Source of the DNA: a virus
IMG/VR virus record: IMGVR_UViG_3300020084_000129
Span: 1 to 21,352 of that record
Reading direction: 5' to 3' (one strand)
Length of the DNA: 21,352 nt
The first letter of the stretch is position 1; every line of letters begins with the position of its first letter. The notes under the pieces were generated by a model that was not told the DNA's origin, did no database searches, and saw only the letters and a program-made list of their open reading frames with translations. This document shows positions 15,611 to 21,352 of the stretch, piece by piece. Position numbers and translations under genes: made by a program.

Positions 15611-17898
15611 GCAACGGAACTAAAGTAGTAAAAAGAAACGGCGCTCTAGAGCCCTTGAATCTAGAAAAACTTCATATCATGGTTGAGGAGGCTTGTAAGG
15701 GGCTTGCAGGCGTTTCTGCATCACAGGTAGAGATGCAATCTGGTATTCAATTCTATGATGGTATTACTACTGCAGAAATTCAAGAAATTTTAATCAGATC
15801 TGCGTCTGATCTTATTGATCTTGAGACTCCCAATTATCAATTTGTTGCAGCTAGACTTTTACTATTCTCGATTAGAAAGTCTATCTATGGAAAGATGAAG
15901 GATCTTCCTAATCTTTCTAAGCAAGTTTTTGCTGGAGTAGATGGTGGAATCTATGATTCTCATTTAATCAAAAAGTATAACATGGCAGAGTTTCATGAAC
16001 TTGATCGTTACATTGATCATGATCGTGACTTTCTGTTCACCTATGCTGGTCTTAGACAGGTTGTTGATAAGTATCTTGTACAAGATAGAAGTTCTGGAAA
16101 AGTTTTTGAAACTCCCCAGTTCATGTATATGTTAATTTCTATGGTTCTGTTTGCTGAGTATCCAAAAGAAAAGCGTCTCTCATATGTTAAGAGGTATTAT
16201 GATGCCATCTCAAAACACAAAATCAACATTCCCACGCCCATCATGGCAGGAGTGCGAACTCCGCTTAGACAATTTGCTAGCTGTGTCCTTGTTGATAGCG
16301 ATGACACCCTCGATAGTATCTTTAGCAGTGATATGGCTATTGGCAGATACGTTGCACAGAGGGCGGGGATCGGCATCAACGCTGGTCGAATCCGTGGCAT
16401 CAACAGTAAAATCAGAGGGGGAGAAGTTCAACACACGGGTGTTGTACCATTTCTCAAGAAGTTTGAAGCGACTGTCAGATGTTGTACGCAAAATGGCATA
16501 CGAGGTGGATCCGCGACAGTCCACTTCCCCATCTGGCACCAAGAAATAGAAGACATTCTTGTACTAAAGAATAATAAAGGAACCGAAGATAACCGTGTTC
16601 GTAGGTTAGATTATTCTATTCAAGTTAGTAAACTGTTCTATGAGCGATTCATTGAAAATGCAGAAATTACCCTATTTTCTCCCCATGATGTACCTGGGTT
16701 GTATGATTCTTTCGGGACTCCTAGCTTTGATGATTTGTATACCAGTTACGAATCAAATGATTCAATCCCTAAAAAGCGAGTCAACGCTCAAAAATTAATT
16801 CTAAATCTTTTAAAAGAAAGAGCAGAGACTGGTCGTATTTACATTATGAATATTGATCACTGCAATTCACATTCATCATTTATTGATAAAGTGAATATGT
16901 CTAATCTTTGCCAAGAGATTACTCTACCAACTGATCCTATTCAACATATTGATGGTGCAGGAGAAATTGCACTTTGCATTCTTTCTGCTGTTAACGTTGG
17001 TAAGGTAAAGTCTGATGAAGAGTTGGAAGAACTTTGTGAGCTTTCTGTTCGTGGACTTGAAGAATTGATTGATTATCAGAATTATCCTGTGCTAGCTGCA
17101 GAACTGTCTACAAAGGCTCGTAGATCCCTTGGAATTGGTTATATTGGTTTGGCGCACTACTTAGCCAAGCTTGGGTTCTCATACAACTCTCAGGAAGCCT
17201 GGGACGCCGTACATGGTCTTTCTGAATCATTCCAGTATTATTTACTTAAAGCATCCAATCAAATTGCCAAAGAAAAAGGTGCATGTCAATTTTTTGAACG
17301 CACAAAATATTCTCATGGCATTCTTCCAATTGATACATATAAAAAAGATGTAGACGAAATTTCATCAATTTCATATCAACATGATTGGGAAAGTTTACGT
17401 GCCGAGATTAAGGCACATGGATTACGACATTCAACATTGTCTGCACAGATGCCATCGGAGAGCAGTTCCGTTGTGTCAAATGCCACTAACGGAATCGAAC
17501 CTCCTAGAGGATACTTGTCTGTTAAGAAATCAAAGAAAGGACCTCTTAAGCAAATTGTTCCACAGTATCAAACTCTCAAGAGCAACTATACGCTTCTTTG
17601 GGATATGCCTGACAATACTGGTTACATTAATCTTGTTGCTGTAATGCAAAAATTCTTTGATCAGGCAATCAGTGGAAACTGGAGTTATAATCCAGAACAC
17701 TACCCTGACAATGAAGTTCCAGTATCAGTCATGGCTAAGGACTTCCTAACTACTTATAAGTATGGGTGGAAGACCTCTTACTATCAGAATACTTATGATC
17801 ATAAGACTGATGAAATTAAAGAGGAACCTAAGTTAACCAATCTACTTCAAGAACTATTAGAAACAGGAGACGAGGATTGTGAAAGCTGCAAAATTTGA
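15607..17898 (+). CDS. nrdA: Ribonucleotide reductase class Ia, large subunit (NrdA)
   Basis: Reduces ribonucleoside diphosphates to dNDPs. The 763 residues align along nearly the full length of E. coli NrdA (761). N-terminal ATP-cone-like region: VVKRNGALEPLNLEKLHIMVEEA. Active-site residues: C226 (ASCVL), N433-L-C435-Q-E437, C457 (ALCILS) and the radical-transfer tyrosines Y725-Y726 (TSYYQNT). The redox-active C-terminal pair is C758-E-S-C761, a C-x2-C, whereas E. coli has C-x4-C. The gene is uninterrupted, although nrd genes are common homing-endonuclease targets. It overlaps primase by 4 bases and nrdB by 20 bases. Confidence 0.98.
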   Translation: MSNGTKVVKRNGALEPLNLEKLHIMVEEACKGLAGVSASQVEMQSGIQFYDGITTAEIQEILIRSASDLIDLETPNYQFVAARLLLFSIRKSIYGKMKDLPNLSKQVFAGVDGGIYDSHLIKKYNMAEFHELDRYIDHDRDFLFTYAGLRQVVDKYLVQDRSSGKVFETPQFMYMLISMVLFAEYPKEKRLSYVKRYYDAISKHKINIPTPIMAGVRTPLRQFASCVLVDSDDTLDSIFSSDMAIGRYVAQRAGIGINAGRIRGINSKIRGGEVQHTGVVPFLKKFEATVRCCTQNGIRGGSATVHFPIWHQEIEDILVLKNNKGTEDNRVRRLDYSIQVSKLFYERFIENAEITLFSPHDVPGLYDSFGTPSFDDLYTSYESNDSIPKKRVNAQKLILNLLKERAETGRIYIMNIDHCNSHSSFIDKVNMSNLCQEITLPTDPIQHIDGAGEIALCILSAVNVGKVKSDEELEELCELSVRGLEELIDYQNYPVLAAELSTKARRSLGIGYIGLAHYLAKLGFSYNSQEAWDAVHGLSESFQYYLLKASNQIAKEKGACQFFERTKYSHGILPIDTYKKDVDEISSISYQHDWESLRAEIKAHGLRHSTLSAQMPSESSSVVSNATNGIEPPRGYLSVKKSKKGPLKQIVPQYQTLKSNYTLLWDMPDNTGYINLVAVMQKFFDQAISGNWSYNPEHYPDNEVPVSVMAKDFLTTYKYGWKTSYYQNTYDHKTDEIKEEPKLTNLLQELLETGDEDCESCKI

Positions 17899-19069
17899 TT
17901 TTAAGGAATCAACCCCTAAAGTAAAGACCATTGATGGAATGACAGTCTTTAACACCACCACGGTGGACTTAAAAAAACAACCAATGTTCTTTGGTCAACC
18001 ATTAGGTATTCAGAGATATGATACTTATAAGTATCCTATTTTTGATAAACTGACACAACAACAGTTGGGATATTTTTGGAGACCTGAGGAGATCTCTCTT
18101 CAAAAAGATCGTGGCGATTATCAATCTCTTCGTCCTGAACAAAAACACATTTTCACTTCTAACCTTAAGTATCAAATTCTTCTTGATTCTGTTCAAGGAC
18201 GTGGACCTGGTATGGCATTTATTCCCTACTGCTCACTCCCTGAGCTGGAAGCATGTATGGAAGTATGGGGATTCATGGAGATGATTCATTCCCGTTCATA
18301 CACTTATATTATTAAGAATGTTTATTCTGATCCAAGTGAAGTTTTTGATTCAATTCTAAATAATGAAAAAATTCTTGAGCGAGCATCTTCTGTCACAGGT
18401 GCTTATGATGACTTTATTAAGGCTGCACAAAATTATGGCACTTCTAATGAGTGGATTTTTGCACAAGAGGGTGCAGGTTATGCAAAAGAAAATAGAATTG
18501 AATTAAAGAGGAAACTTTACAGAGCAATTGCCAATGTCAACATTCTCGAAGGTATCAGGTTTTATGTCTCGTTCGCTTGCAGCTTTGCGTTCGGAGAACT
18601 TAAGCTTATGGAGGGATCCGCTAAAATTATCTCTCTCATCGCAAGAGACGAAAATCAGCACCTTGTCATTACTCAAAACATCCTCAATAAGTGGCGTGAA
18701 GGAGATGACCCAGAGATGCTACAAATTGTTAGGGAAGAAGAAGACTGGGTAAAACGTGCCTTTGAGACCTGTGTAAATCAGGAAAAAAGTTGGGCAGAAT
18801 ACCTTTTTAAAGATGGATCCATGATAGGATTGAATGACAAACTTCTCAACAACTATGTTGAGTGGATTGCAAACCGTCGTATGAAAGCCATTGGCATCAA
18901 ACCCCACTATGATATCTCTGCCAAAAATAACCCATTACCATGGACAGAACATTGGATCTCTTCCAAAGGTCTACAAGTGGCTCCCCAAGAAACGGAGGTT
19001 GAATCCTACGTTGTTGGCGGCATTAAGCAAGATGTCAAAAAAGACACCTTTGCAGGATTCAAACTGTAA
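17879..19069 (+). CDS. nrdB: Ribonucleotide reductase class Ia, small subunit (NrdB)
   Basis: Houses the di-iron centre and tyrosyl radical used by NrdA. Conserved residues are visible: D in LLDSVQGR, E, H and Y in FMEMIHSRSY, E in LEGIRFYVSFACSFAF, and E and H in ARDENQHL. It ends VESYVVGGIKQDV...FAGFKL, like E. coli NrdB. The GTG at 17879 is preceded by AGGAG (17865-17869) at ideal spacing and lies inside the end of nrdA; it gives 396 residues. The alternative ATG at 17939 (MTVFNTTT) matches the E. coli start better but has no Shine-Dalgarno. The start is therefore open; the identity is not. Confidence 0.96.
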   Translation: MKAAKFDFKESTPKVKTIDGMTVFNTTTVDLKKQPMFFGQPLGIQRYDTYKYPIFDKLTQQQLGYFWRPEEISLQKDRGDYQSLRPEQKHIFTSNLKYQILLDSVQGRGPGMAFIPYCSLPELEACMEVWGFMEMIHSRSYTYIIKNVYSDPSEVFDSILNNEKILERASSVTGAYDDFIKAAQNYGTSNEWIFAQEGAGYAKENRIELKRKLYRAIANVNILEGIRFYVSFACSFAFGELKLMEGSAKIISLIARDENQHLVITQNILNKWREGDDPEMLQIVREEEDWVKRAFETCVNQEKSWAEYLFKDGSMIGLNDKLLNNYVEWIANRRMKAIGIKPHYDISAKNNPLPWTEHWISSKGLQVAPQETEVESYVVGGIKQDVKKDTFAGFKL

Positions 19070-19087
19070 CAAAAGTTACAAAACTAT

Positions 19088-19116
19088 TTGACTATATAGA
19101 AATAATAGGTTATAAT
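19088..19116 (+). promoter_or_regulatory. Near-consensus sigma70-type early promoter
   Basis: TTGACT (19088-19093) and TATAAT (19111-19116) are separated by exactly 17 bases. Transcription would begin at about 19122-19124, exactly where the riboswitch-like leader begins. This would be read by host RNA polymerase early in infection. Confidence 0.88.
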
Positions 19117-19122
19117 ACACCT

Positions 19123-19175
19123 ATCGTTCATCCCTATAGGACGGAAGTAAGCCGACTCGGAACGGATCGTTCATC
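19123..19175 (+). ncRNA. Glutamine-II (downstream-peptide) riboswitch candidate
   Basis: The leader contains CGUUCAUCC, GGACGGAAGUAAG and CGGAACGGAUCGUUC, which I recognise as the conserved blocks of the downstream-peptide/glutamine aptamer of cyanobacteria and their phages. CGUUC (19125-19129) pairs with GAACG (19160-19164). UCC/GGA (19131-19133/19139-19141) and CCG/CGG (19152-19154/19158-19160) form short hairpins, the latter sharing G19160. The second CGUUC (19168-19172), 4 bases before the AUG, can pair with GAACG, or with GGACG (19139-19143) as a pseudoknot. It precedes a short ORF, as is usual for this class. Assignment is from memory of the consensus, not a covariance search. Confidence 0.75.
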
Positions 19176-19176
19176 T

Positions 19177-19332
19177 ATGGAAATCATTCTCTGGTCTTGC
19201 GTAGAAGCTCAAAAACTTATCAATAATGTTCGCACCTCAAAAGTGCCAGATGAGATAAAAGCAGAGCTTATTCAAATTCATAAAGAACACGCACCAAAGA
19301 CTTGTAAATTCATAGACGCAAAAGCCGACTGA
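19177..19332 (+). CDS. Riboswitch-controlled short protein, 51 aa
   Basis: The first ORF after the riboswitch candidate. It begins MEIILWSCVEAQKLINNVR and continues with a helical, charged region (PDEIKAELIQIHKEHAPKTC) to a stop at 19330-19332. Two cysteines (residues 8 and 43). No signal peptide or membrane span. There is no Shine-Dalgarno before the ATG; the second riboswitch strand lies there instead, so translation is probably set by the leader fold. Downstream-peptide riboswitches characteristically precede short ORFs of 17-100 codons. In cyanobacteria some encode glutamine synthetase inactivating factors, but I see no convincing similarity to IF7 or IF17. Function unknown. Confidence 0.8.
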   Translation: MEIILWSCVEAQKLINNVRTSKVPDEIKAELIQIHKEHAPKTCKFIDAKAD

Positions 19333-19372
19333 AGGAACGCTCTTTAACCTGAACAACTAAGGAGAAAACCTA

Positions 19373-19513
19373 ATGTCAAAAGTAGTATACCGTGGCGTCG
19401 CATATGACACCGAACAGCGCATTGCATATCAACAGCAAATGCAACAACAACCTCAACAATACAATGAGACCTATCGTGGGGTCAAATTTGTAAAAGAGGG
19501 GAACAAGGGATGA
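19373..19513 (+). CDS. DUF4278-like YRG-motif protein, 46 aa
   Basis: A short protein with two YRGV motifs: VVYRGVAYD near the start and ETYRGVKFVK near the end, joined by a Gln-rich linker (QQQMQQQPQQ). The YRG(V/I)xY motif is the hallmark of the cyanobacterial DUF4278 family, of unknown function. AAGGAG at 19359-19364 supports the ATG at 19373. The stop overlaps the next start in ATGA. Probably transcribed from the promoter at 19088-19116, hence early. Confidence 0.75.
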   Translation: MSKVVYRGVAYDTEQRIAYQQQMQQQPQQYNETYRGVKFVKEGNKG

Positions 19514-19671
19514 CAGCAACCTATCGTGGTGTGAAGTATAACACTCACACTCCGAAACTAGAATATCGTAAGTGGTATTCACAAACACATGCTCCATCTC
19601 ATCCACCAAATAAGTATCGTGGTATTTCTTATCGTCCATGTAATAACTGGGACTGGGAGGAAAAACAATGA
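19510..19671 (+). CDS. DUF4278-like YRG-motif protein, 53 aa
   Basis: Begins MTATYRGVKYNTHTPKLEYRKWY and ends with KYRGISYRPCNNWDWEEKQ, so it again carries one YRG motif at each end, with a His/Pro linker. It looks like a diverged tandem copy of the preceding gene; the DNA around ACCTATCGTGG is shared between them. ATGA overlaps join it to genes on both sides. No known function. Confidence 0.75.
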   Translation: MTATYRGVKYNTHTPKLEYRKWYSQTHAPSHPPNKYRGISYRPCNNWDWEEKQ

Positions 19672-19757
19672 TACAAACTATCGTATCTCTAACTGCTGCA
19701 GCAGCTCTAGGAACATTCTTACTTTCAACCTATATTCAGTGGTTGTATAAGTATTAA
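19668..19757 (+). CDS. Tiny single-span membrane protein, 29 aa
   Basis: MIQTIVSLTAAAALGTFLLS followed by TYIQWLYKY: one hydrophobic span of about 18-20 residues with an aromatic, basic end. The start is in an ATGA overlap with the YRG protein and GGAGG lies at 19656-19660, a good Shine-Dalgarno. That supports a real gene despite its size. Function unknown; a membrane-acting micropeptide made early in infection is a reasonable guess. Confidence 0.62.
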   Translation: MIQTIVSLTAAAALGTFLLSTYIQWLYKY

Positions 19758-19880
19758 GTTATACTAAAAAGATACAAATGTTAGTGAATAAACACAAAGT
19801 ATGCTAGATAGTATATTCTATGGAGTAGAAAGATGATCTGAAACTTTTTATTATGATATTCTTTGTGCTCGGAGGTTATT

Positions 19881-20057
19881 ATGCACAACTTAATCTCTTA
19901 CAATCAATTAGCTGGATGGAAACACTTTGAAGAAACTGTAGATCGATGTAATGAACAAAACGACTTGGTTAATGATTATTTTAATTGTTTAATTGAGTGT
20001 GATCATGAAAAACAAACTTGTAAAAAAATTTGTAGGGAATTGTTAACCAAGTCATAA
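19881..20057 (+). CDS. Hypothetical protein, 58 aa, Cys-rich C-terminal half
   Basis: ATG 19881 is preceded by GGAGG (19871-19875). The protein begins MHNLISYNQLAGWKHFEETVDRC and has five cysteines in DRCNEQND, FNCLIECDHEK and TCKKICREL, spaced so that they could bind metal or pair along two helices. No membrane span. It follows 123 bases of A+T-rich sequence in which I see no clear promoter or other gene, and it is followed by a terminator, so it is the last gene of the early unit. No family recognised. Confidence 0.7.
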   Translation: MHNLISYNQLAGWKHFEETVDRCNEQNDLVNDYFNCLIECDHEKQTCKKICRELLTKS

Positions 20058-20063
20058 GTAAAC

Positions 20064-20088
20064 GGGGGGCTGACTACCCCTCTTTTTT
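20064..20088 (+). terminator. Rho-independent terminator
   Basis: GGGGGG (20064-20069) can pair with CCCC plus TC (20077-20082), giving about six pairs with one G-U and a 7-base loop, followed by six T (20083-20088). It ends the riboswitch-led unit. Confidence 0.82.
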
Positions 20089-20117
20089 AATATATACTTT
20101 ATCTTATAAAATTATGA

Positions 20118-20471
20118 ATGAAACCACAGTCATGTAAAGCTAAAGGTAGAAACCTTCAGAAGTGGGTTAGAGAACAACTTATAGAACAACTTGATATTCA
20201 TCCTGAAGATATTGAATCTCGTAGCATGGGTGCTAGTGGAGAAGATTTGATCATGGCAAGAGCTGCTAGACAAAAGTTTCCCTTTAGTGTAGAATGTAAA
20301 AATGCTGAGAGGTTAAACGTATGGGAAGCATATGAGCAAGCTTCTGCAAACTGTGGTACATATGAACCAATTGTGGTTATGAAAAAAAATCACAAGAAAC
20401 CTTTGGTAGTCATTGATGCTGAAACCTTTATTAAATTAGTTGGAAGGATTGACACAACCGAATTTTCGTGA
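20118..20471 (+). CDS. PD-(D/E)XK nuclease-like protein (Holliday resolvase type)
   Basis: A 117-residue protein beginning MKPQSCKAKGRNLQKWVREQL. The core reads SMGASGEDLIMARAARQKFPFSVECKNAERLNVWEAYEQA. D43 (in GED), E59 and K61 (in ECK) fit the D-(x)n-E-x-K metal site of the PD-(D/E)XK nuclease fold, and Q74 follows in the next helix, as in Holliday-junction resolvase or VRR-Nuc-like enzymes. It is compact and may act as a dimer on branched or damaged phage DNA. A TATAAA lies just upstream (20105-20110) without a clear -35. No Shine-Dalgarno is seen. Family-level call only. Confidence 0.75.
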   Translation: MKPQSCKAKGRNLQKWVREQLIEQLDIHPEDIESRSMGASGEDLIMARAARQKFPFSVECKNAERLNVWEAYEQASANCGTYEPIVVMKKNHKKPLVVIDAETFIKLVGRIDTTEFS

Positions 20472-20498
20472 TAAACTAACCAAGTCCGCATAGAAGCA

Positions 20499-20696
20499 AT
20501 GTCCTCTTCCGATGTTCAGCAAGCCAACCTTAAAAAGGTGGTACAGAGTAGCATTCAATATGCTATTGACAGAATTTTAGAACTATATGATTGTAATAAA
20601 ATTCAAGATGCTGAAGCATTGTCTAGAGAATTTGATGTTTGGTTTGAAGAAGACTATGGTGATTACTACATCATGTTCATGGTAGTTGAGGAATAA
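20499..20696 (+). CDS. Hypothetical acidic protein, 65 aa
   Basis: Begins MSSSDVQQANLKKVVQSSIQYAIDRILELYDCNKI and ends with a very acidic, aromatic tail (FDVWFEEDYGDYYIMFMVVEE). It is helical at the start and probably folds as a small helix-plus-strand unit. Found 27 bases after the nuclease-like gene, probably in the same transcript. No family recognised. A late promoter-like AATAAATA overlaps its stop. Confidence 0.7.
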   Translation: MSSSDVQQANLKKVVQSSIQYAIDRILELYDCNKIQDAEALSREFDVWFEEDYGDYYIMFMVVEE

Positions 20697-20699
20697 ATA
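20692..20699 (+). promoter_or_regulatory. Candidate late promoter AATAAATA
   Basis: One mismatch to TATAAATA, overlapping the preceding stop. The next gene is a virion-type lysozyme, which would be expected to be late. The leader from here to the ATG at 20802 would be about 90 bases, longer than for the other late genes. Confidence 0.5.
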
Positions 20700-20730
20700 A
20701 ACCAATATCATTTCTATGTGACAATTAGAG

Positions 20731-20779
20731 CCGTGGGGTCTGCCCTCTGAGAAGAGGGAAGTGCGCTTTCCCTATACGG
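20731..20779 (+). promoter_or_regulatory. Structured leader with two mutually exclusive hairpins
   Basis: CCCTCT (20743-20748) pairs with AGAGGG (20753-20758) around a GAGA tetraloop. The same AGGG strand can instead pair as GGGAA (20756-20760) with TTCCC (20768-20772). CCGT (20731-20734) and ACGG (20776-20779) could close the whole element. It lies in the leader of the lysozyme-like gene. I cannot match it to a known RNA family. Confidence 0.5.
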
Positions 20780-20801
20780 ATGTAGAGTTCAATTAAACTA
20801 A

Positions 20802-21352
20802 ATGCAACAATTCCTTACAGTAGCCATGCCCCTTCTGGCAACGGTTACAACCAATGTGGCAACACTGCCCCTGTTTCCTCCTCTGACGACGCCTCCAGCG
20901 CCGTTTTCTATTATTAAGGAGTTTGAAACACTGACAGCGACCAAAGAGGTTGCTCCGCCTGAAAAGCCAAAAGAGAAAAGGCTAATTTGTAAAGGGTGTA
21001 ATGACAATGAGAATGCTACCCTGGTATACTTCCAGGATCGTGGTATAAAAGACAGAAACGCCCTTGCTACCATCATGGGCAACATTAGGCAAGAATCCAC
21101 TTTCGTGCCTAACATTTGTGAGGGTGGTAGCAGAACCAGTTACGGTAACTGCTGGCGCGGTTACGGTCTGATTCAATGGACATCTGCCAACAGATATTAT
21201 GGATTGGGTGATTTTGCTAAGAGGTATGGTGGTTCACCATCATCCCTTGACACGCAACTTCGTTATCTAACAAATGAGGTTCAGTGGTTGGATATTGAGG
21301 AGAAGATGAAAACTCCTGGCAAATCAATTAACCGCTACATGGACTATGCGTA
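20802..21352 (+). CDS. Tail-lysozyme-like protein, 3' end beyond the window
   Basis: The frame is open from the ATG at 20802 to the end of the window (183 complete codons). Residues 1-35 form a hydrophobic, Pro-rich N-terminus (MQQFLTVAMPLLATVTTNVATLP), then a Lys/Glu/Pro linker. A C-x-x-C follows at 63-66 and, from about residue 75, a domain resembling the phage tail lysozyme family: ALATIMGNIRQESTF with E98 as the likely catalytic acid, then YGLIQWT, RYYGLGDFAKRYG and LRYLTNEV. It would cut peptidoglycan during entry or lysis. The N-terminus could be a signal or membrane anchor. No Shine-Dalgarno before the ATG; an in-frame ATG at 20826 is an alternative start. Confidence 0.82.
   Translation, partial: MQQFLTVAMPLLATVTTNVATLPLFPPLTTPPAPFSIIKEFETLTATKEVAPPEKPKEKRLICKGCNDNENATLVYFQDRGIKDRNALATIMGNIRQESTFVPNICEGGSRTSYGNCWRGYGLIQWTSANRYYGLGDFAKRYGGSPSSLDTQLRYLTNEVQWLDIEEKMKTPGKSINRYMDYA

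Follow-up and report, generated by a model that had tools for sequence, protein, structure and literature searches.

Both types of glutamine riboswitch, glutamine-I (glnA RNA, RF01739) and glutamine-II (Downstream-peptide RNA, RF01704), are described in PMC6316151 as ON switches that stand mainly in front of DUF4278 genes; the same source places an NtcA motif at one host gene, reports the gif genes as repressed by NtcA, and describes DUF4278 as the part of IF17, a GS inactivating factor, that is dispensable for function. Glutamine riboswitches have already been reported in cyanophages (portions of PMC9964418 and PMC9602691) and in tandem (portions of PMC2864571 and PMC9481103), the survey in PMC9481103 counting, in the portion used, only cases where no intervening ORF was seen. 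Within the portion of the open literature on glutamine riboswitches that was covered, no description was found of an aptamer that encloses an ORF, nor of a fold in which the first of four P1 strands pairs with the fourth and the second with the third (1-4/2-3).

The leader described here lies in a virus record of 21,352 bases (the window, i.e., the whole stretch of DNA analysed), which we take to be from a T4-like cyanophage. At this locus the annotated phage nearest to it was Synechococcus phage DSL-LC03 (Kyanoviridae), which covers 98% of the query with 70.8% identity and in which the genes for the large and small subunits of ribonucleotide reductase precede the locus in the same place as in the window. 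Apart from those matched in Pfam or PHROG, the gene names used for the window are presumptive. The ORF at 20118–20471 matched a RusA-like Holliday junction resolvase (phrog_244, E 1.1e-20; Pfam PDDEXK_15 below cut-off) that is also found in DSL-LC03, and the ORF at 2201–2716, beside a clamp-loader-like gene, has what we take to be the look of an HNH-type homing endonuclease.

Results

The leader and the Rfam families

Covariance models were run over the whole window (cmscan, up to E 5), as the original prediction of a glutamine-II aptamer had proposed. The single match was to RF01739 at 19123–19168 (E 7.5e-4), its 33.4 bits falling just below the curated gathering cut-off of 35 bits, which no unit of the window reached; RF01704 gave no match in the window up to E 5. 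The aptamer was thus of glutamine type as predicted, but Rfam placed it with glutamine-I and not with glutamine-II. Among 8 phage records, one RF01739 unit passed the cut-off in each of two (L006 and L007), and RF01704 matched 3 units below its cut-off. The RF01739 model cannot span the pairing of strands 1 and 4, and these scores are for single units and not for the composite. Nor was the 46-nt unit of the prediction the whole structure: the composite is about 215 nt, with two junctions sharing P3; the prediction covered one quarter of it, and the aptamer runs on to 19339 (Table 1).

The outer junction of the window matched the conserved blocks CGUUCA, CGGAAGUA and GAAGGAACGC. P1 (CGUUC/GAACG) closes the junction as in RF01739 when strands 1 and 4 are joined (288/290 arrays), and the RF01739 blocks CGGAAGUA, after P2, and GAAG (19331–19334), before the 3' strand of P1, are both present. 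Most relatives carry CGC instead of CGG in the first core segment, and in place of the short local P3 hairpin of RF01739 there is a long-range, covarying P3.

Table 1. Predicted features of the leader and its surroundings in the window
Feature	Position	Strand	Basis or remark
NtcA-type box GTAACAAAAGTTAC (GTAN8TAC)	19066..19079	+	upstream of -35; sequence and related arrays
sigma70-like promoter TTGACT-17-TATAAT	19088..19116	+	predicted start about 19123; -10 position conserved
Leader / composite domain	19125-19339	+	four P1 strands
P1 strand 1 (CGUUC), partner strand 4 at 19335-19339	19125..19129	+	288/290 arrays; RNAalifold
Outer P2 hairpin (UCC / GGA)	19131..19141	+	loop houses second ORF in other phages, e.g. 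P-SSM4, P-HM1
Core segment CGGAAGUA of glutamine-I	19142..19149	+	RF01739 consensus match
P3 5' strand AGCCGACU, partner 19323-19330	19150..19157	+	6/8 pairs, two A.C mismatches
Inner P1 hairpin, strands 2 and 3, GAACG-GAU-CGUUC	19160..19172	+	2-3 pair in 364/364 arrays
Inner P2 5' strand UCUAUG, holds nested AUG	19174..19179	+	pairs with 19311-19316; covariation
Nested ORF, 51 codons (phrog_504), two-cysteine peptide	19177..19332	+	pN/pS <1 in 225/225 relative pairs
Inner P2 3' strand CAUAGA, within ORF	19311..19316	+	complementary to UCUAUG
CGCAAA core segment, inner junction, coding	19317..19322	+	same core sequences in ORF-free compact copies
P3 3' strand AGCCGACU; final base is first base of stop UGA	19323..19330	+	short/long class matching
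GAAG and P1 strand 4 (GAACG), overlaps stop UGA 19330-19332	19331..19339	+	arrays and window fold
Shine-Dalgarno AAGGAG of first YRG gene	19359..19364	+	predicted paired with CUCUUUA just 3' of P1
YRG gene 1 (DUF4278-like, phrog_5049)	19373..19513	+	PF14105 E 5.6e-4, below cut-off; phrog_5049 E 7.4e-13
YRG gene 2 (DUF4278)	19510..19671	+	PF14105 E 7.1e-7, above cut-off
Hydrophobic ORF, 29 codons	from 19669		ORF list

Pairing of the P1 and P3 strands

Among the matches listed, 364 distinct arrays were parsed, strand 4 being unparsed in 66 and strand 1 in 16. With kinship ignored, as in all pair counts here, strands 2 and 3 remained paired in 364/364, and strands 1 and 4 in 288 of the 290 arrays with both strands parsed; the two exceptions (L290, L293) may be parser errors. 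The pairs of a tandem arrangement failed in part of the arrays among the matches listed, 1-2 in 74/348 (kept in 274) and 3-4 in 45/298 (kept in 253). The combinations of strand 2 and strand 3 in the same 364 arrays were GGAACG/CGTTCA (284) and GCAACG/CGTTGA (80), with 0 mixed, i.e., the 80 arrays carry a two-sided C-G swap in pair 2-3, and in these strand 1 was still CGTTC (72/72 parsed) and strand 4 still GAACG (45/45 parsed). One-sided swap variants, sought in all of IMG/VR, gave 2 and 11 matches, and 13/13 were without the aptamer core. Our first reading, two tandem aptamers with the ORF in the second, was dropped after the swapped arrays: pairs 2-3 and 1-4 hold while 1-2 and 3-4 fail, which argues that these are not tandem aptamers.

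P3 occurred in a short and a long class, strand 2 ending in a tail of AGUCG or AGCCGACU and strand 4 following a core of CGACU or AGCCGACU. The classes agreed in 296 of 298 arrays among the matches listed (209 short-short, 87 long-long, 2 mixed), and compensatory types were seen (AAUCG/CGAUU, AGUCA/UGACU, AAUCU/AGAUU). When the distinct types were permuted, kinship being ignored, their own pairing was reached by 15/5000 permutations for the short class and 4/5000 for the long. RNAalifold, run unconstrained on two sets of ORF-free arrays, returned the outer P1 (1-4) with its P2 and the inner hairpin (2-3) with its P2, and recovered P3 in the short set. The pairing data and RNAalifold together therefore argue for a junction of glutamine-I type in which another junction, in circularly permuted order, takes the place of the P3 hairpin, and at the level of sequence comparison we regard this pairing scheme as established. 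For the window by itself, the composite scheme forced without P3 gave -46.3 kcal/mol, the free optimum -47.0 and the tandem scheme -43.9; forcing P3, which has two A.C mismatches there, cost energy (-40.9 kcal/mol), and the minimum energy of the leader was no lower than that of shuffles (z -0.10).

ORFs within the P2 loops

The second block set of the window is split, its 5' part running to 19176, the ORF starting at 19177, and its 3' part, CAUAGACGCAAAAGCCGACUGAAGGAACG, occupying 19311–19339; the nested AUG lies within the inner P2 helix, and the last codons and the stop are aptamer core. The 51-residue ORF of the original prediction is therefore present, but it is not simply downstream: it sits in an aptamer hairpin loop. 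In S-PM2, S-CREM1, P-TIM68 and Bellamy the two block sets are consecutive with a 3–5 nt linker (the annotated glnA element of S-CREM1, 99 bp, spans the whole array), and in P-SSM4 and P-HM1 each set holds an ORF. P-SSM4 also carries a manA RNA (RF01745, 184 bits; L004:1019-1204), which lies some 90 nt before the first aptamer strand, in the interval from pstS to the array.

A scan of IMG/VR with the junction CGGAACGGANCGTTCATC gave at least 120 stretches, the initial sampling being by aptamer motif. The matches listed and the phage loci supplied 203 distinct units, 82 compact and 121 with 143–239 nt between the halves. All 121 gapped units (among the matches listed) contained an ORF from an ATG 9–21 nt after the start of CGTTCA, and 80/84 inner-type units, again among the matches listed, had the stop (TGA or TAA) inside the core, so that the C-terminus of the peptide consists of aptamer-encoded residues, e.g., DAND or DAKAD. 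The bias of a motif search was removed by recruiting loci with the peptide only, its aptamer-coded residues trimmed; 6/160 loci cut by a contig end or lacking a stop were set aside. Both aptamer halves surrounded the ORF in 76/76 complete inner-type loci (best 80 of 491 relatives) and in 78/78 complete outer-type loci (best 80 of 453 relatives), and these loci establish the nesting by comparison. In most of the marine cyanophage arrays examined a complete tiny gene lies within a hairpin of the sensor, so that one stretch of RNA seems to do double duty as gene and sensor.

Occupancy of the outer and inner loops in 100 arrays among the matches listed was 53 empty-filled, 27 filled-filled, 12 empty-empty and 8 filled-empty. 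A scan with the 3' half yielded 61 new loci: in 37 the loop was filled and the junction present, 12 lacked the junction and were filled or ambiguous, 7 were empty, and in 5 the 5' half was missing; 10 of the 12 junction-less loci were inspected by eye, and several were parser failures. Of these ten, two (L272, L299) carried additional sequence from one junction to the other, the inner 5' strand following an unrelated stretch that ends in AAATCACTCTAAT where the usual linker would stand, and in two others (L264, L288) the first half was absent and a similar stretch stood in its place.

Matches to the junction on genome contigs numbered 73, and the 5 with an aptamer core were taken as contigs of phages within MAGs, one SAG and one isolate assembly. 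The array was noted on contigs (L180, L182, L195, L149, L199) of assemblies named Nonlabens, Euryarchaeota, Rhodospirillaceae and Prochlorococcus, which are probably phage contigs within those assemblies. The nested pattern with a 130–160 nt gap was found in 0/300 genomes of the family of the Prochlorococcus SAG, and RF01739 in 1/151 genomes of its genus, that one being the array in the SAG itself; RF01704 was present in 21/21 host genomes.

Base pairing across the ORF was assessed at P2. Positions 3 and 4 of the inner P2 were paired in 84/84 units (CG, UA, AU, UG), where 69.5 and 46.8 were expected if the strands were independent; position 5 was paired in 73/84 (42.6 expected), and positions 6–7 were at chance. 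With kinship ignored, the inner strands formed 5.90 bp with their own partners compared to 4.17 when permuted within class (sd 0.15, maximum 4.70 in 5000), and shifts of register gave 0–2.4 bp; the outer P2 gave 5.54 bp compared to 3.86 (sd 0.25). Outer position 4 was unpaired in 12/37, many of these regaining pairing beyond a bulge or internal loop. Compensatory changes in P2 were also found between close relatives, 80–88% identical; for the outer class the close-relative listing also held 104 one-sided comparisons and 38 two-sided comparisons with one member unpaired. The codon before DAND/DAKAD tracked the 5' strand, AUA (Ile) occurring in 17/19 with UCUA and UGG (Trp) in 40/44 with UCCC. 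In the peptide-recruited sets the helix was 5.38 bp compared to 3.60 (sd 0.27) for the outer type and 5.25 compared to 4.87 (sd 0.08) for the inner, the small contrast in the inner set arising because one P2 type dominates; that set included three replacements of U-A by C-G at position 1.

The nested peptides

In each nested family the peptides begin with a hydrophobic stretch and contain exactly two cysteines, spaced 31–40 residues apart (37/37 and 84/84), and the two family profiles are homologous (hhalign probability 96.7, E 3.2e-10). From these features the peptides may be exported or disulfide-bonded. The inner family corresponds to phrog_504 (window E 3.8e-5) and the outer peptide of P-SSM4 to phrog_6471, both of function unknown in PHROG, and a second outer subfamily had no match in PHROG. 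Median pN/pS was 0.36 for the inner family (225 pairs) and 0.28 for the outer (98 pairs), with no pair >1, values that demonstrate selection on the peptide. A tblastn search of the phage records with the 51-residue peptide gave no match up to E 1, although related ORFs were present, the reason being the rapid divergence of the family. Nothing usable came from Pfam, from NCBIfam or from Foldseek with the structural model of the peptide (best Foldseek E 2.0), the model being a two-helix hairpin with mean pLDDT 83.7. A GGAG linker was found in 54/80 arrays with an inner ORF and 0/20 without (Fisher p 1.0e-8, kinship ignored); the linker of the window is GGAU, not GGAG. Translation of the inner ORF is supported because the GGAG linker goes with ORF-filled inner loops.

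Promoter, NtcA-type box and downstream genes

The sigma70 promoter and the start near 19123 stood as originally predicted, and so did an aptamer at +1, its blocks beginning at about 19123–19125 of the sigma70-like transcript. The promoter matched the consensus at 11/12 positions and was the top of 18 sites in 17000–21352; by itself it is weak evidence, because the whole window held 5 sites of at least 11/12 compared to an average of 1.25 over 20 simulated windows. Where it lies carries more weight than the motif alone, a -10-like hexamer lying 4–12 nt before the first CGTTC in 68/98 related arrays compared to 916/3444 control windows. GTAN8TAC, which we take to be the NtcA consensus, occurred within 100 nt upstream in 73/97 related arrays compared to 46/1982 control windows, its commonest end being 44–45 nt before the first CGTTC. 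In the 73 arrays the box ended 38–56 nt before the aptamer in 58, 24–25 nt in 4 and 5–9 nt in 11; the box of the window belongs to the 38–56 nt class, upstream of -35, and the 5–9 nt class has the host-like placement. These placements suggest two promoter designs, possibly with opposite effects of NtcA.

Of the tiny genes originally predicted behind the leader, the two YRG ORFs are present, and the predicted micro membrane protein corresponds to a hydrophobic ORF of 29 codons (Table 1). The next ORF had the YRG-type motif in 94/94 arrays, with a Shine-Dalgarno-like sequence in 90, and the phage YRG proteins matched DUF4278 only; comparison of the arrays thus demonstrates the DUF4278/YRG association. 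The glutamine-II loci of host Prochlorococcus that were examined likewise lie mostly upstream of a YRG-type gene, with GTAN8TAC close before the aptamer. Alignment folding of the stretch from the aptamer to the YRG start, aimed at a conserved expression platform, returned an empty structure. The YRG Shine-Dalgarno of the window was predicted to be paired both in the free state and in the forced closed state, and for that reason the downstream ON step is not explained.

Discussion

We favour, with moderate confidence, the reading that leader 19125–19339 is one composite glutamine-I-type riboswitch domain with a gene in its loop and reciprocal control. Its outer three-way junction consists of P1 (the 5' end with the stretch after the nested stop), the P2 hairpin, CGGAAGUA, P3 and GAAG, and the terminal loop of P3 is replaced by a circularly permuted junction, with P1 closed by a triloop and a P2 loop holding the complete 51-codon gene. 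Binding of glutamine would stabilise P1, P2 and P3, and the closed domain would hide the nested AUG (all of its bases are paired in the predicted ensemble) and turn off the nested peptide; by analogy with the hosts, it would favour YRG translation downstream. If closure by ligand turns off the nested peptide and favours YRG, then one sensor would act on two genes in opposite directions. At low glutamine, ribosomes on the nested ORF would traverse the inner P2 and the P3 strand and stop beside P1 strand 4, and their passage would keep the domain open, translation of the inner gene competing with folding. Nitrogen status is a plausible signal for the leader, and the NtcA-type box would be a second nitrogen input beside the glutamine sensor.

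The composite might instead control the YRG genes only, the nested ORFs being passengers in a tolerant loop and sharing promoter and message. P2 loops of aptamers usually tolerate insertions, and ORF-free arrays exist (12/100 among the matches listed); against passengers, almost every ORF has its AUG at the P2 helix and its stop codon within the core or close to it, arrays with an ORF inside have a different linker, and the peptide families were never outside the aptamer in 154 complete loci (from the best 80 of 491 relatives and the best 80 of 453). We hold this reading to be unlikely, while giving it real weight. Two ordinary tandem glutamine-I aptamers (1-2, 3-4), the second split by a short ORF and the pair acting as a cooperative switch, would accord with the Rfam scores of some single units, with the GGAACG/CGTTCA majority, which permits either scheme, and with the 157 doublets and 4 triplets of glutamine riboswitches reported as tandem (in the portion of PMC9481103 used). 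That arrangement is nonetheless very unlikely, since it would set C against C in 1-2 (72/72 parsed) and G against G in 3-4 (45/45) in the 80 swapped arrays, where 2-3 and 1-4 stay paired; moreover, unit 1 has no GAAG and unit 2 no GUA, full consensus arising only from the 1-4 scheme, and RNAalifold chose 1-4/2-3.

A ligand other than glutamine, or a structural lock on the start codon, would be consistent with the usual CGC in place of CGG in the first core segment and with an inner junction without GUA; we consider it quite unlikely, as the outer junction of the window retains all conserved glutamine-I blocks and the downstream gene type is a known target of host glutamine riboswitches. The halves could also mark, in the DNA, the two ends of a small gene cassette that inserts into aptamer cores or recombines there, the RNA pairing then reflecting copied repeats and not a working switch. 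All four combinations of empty and filled loops do occur, and the two peptide families are homologous, but we find a cassette hard to credit given the pair-specific compensatory changes in P1, P2 and P3, also among 80–88% identical relatives, the conserved core segments, which point to an RNA fold, and the constancy of position and downstream gene.

Of the composite domain that we favour, a fuller account is offered only tentatively: an aptamer with whole genes in its hairpin loops, two ligand-binding-like junctions with a shared P3 and pseudo-two-fold symmetry, would form a reciprocal switch in which ligand silences the inner gene and permits the gene behind, and the sensor is kept open by ribosomes translating the inner gene. 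The usual picture of a riboswitch is a sensor and then a gene; here the sensor encloses the gene. With the start codon base-paired in the sensor and the last codons forming its core, translation and ligand sensing would compete for the same nucleotides. Some cyanophage leaders whose current annotation is that of tandem glutamine riboswitches probably form a single interlocked fold, and phrog_504 and phrog_6471, short ORFs of function unknown, gain a constant regulatory setting linked to the nitrogen status of the host.

Tandem glutamine riboswitches (PMC9481103, in the portion used) resemble the phage leader in having two aptamer block sets in a row in one leader, whereas the phage pair is interlocked in a single fold (1-4, 2-3). 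Compared to glutamine-I, the leader has the same P1, P2, CGGAAGUA and GAAGGAACG, and likewise stands upstream of DUF4278-type genes; it differs in the usual phage sequence CGC, not CGG, in a P3 that is long-range and carries the second junction, and in P2 loops that can house whole ORFs. Glutamine-II has the same P1 letters (CGUUC/GAACG) and a similar first core segment (CGCA), and its host version precedes YRG genes with a GTAN8TAC box; it was, however, unmatched in the window, and in the host loci examined the ORF comes after the aptamer, none being nested. Group I introns can carry homing endonuclease ORFs in their loops, and there too a gene lies in a peripheral loop of a folded RNA; the phage leader, in contrast, bears no sign of a ribozyme or of mobility, and its start and stop codons are themselves part of the fold.
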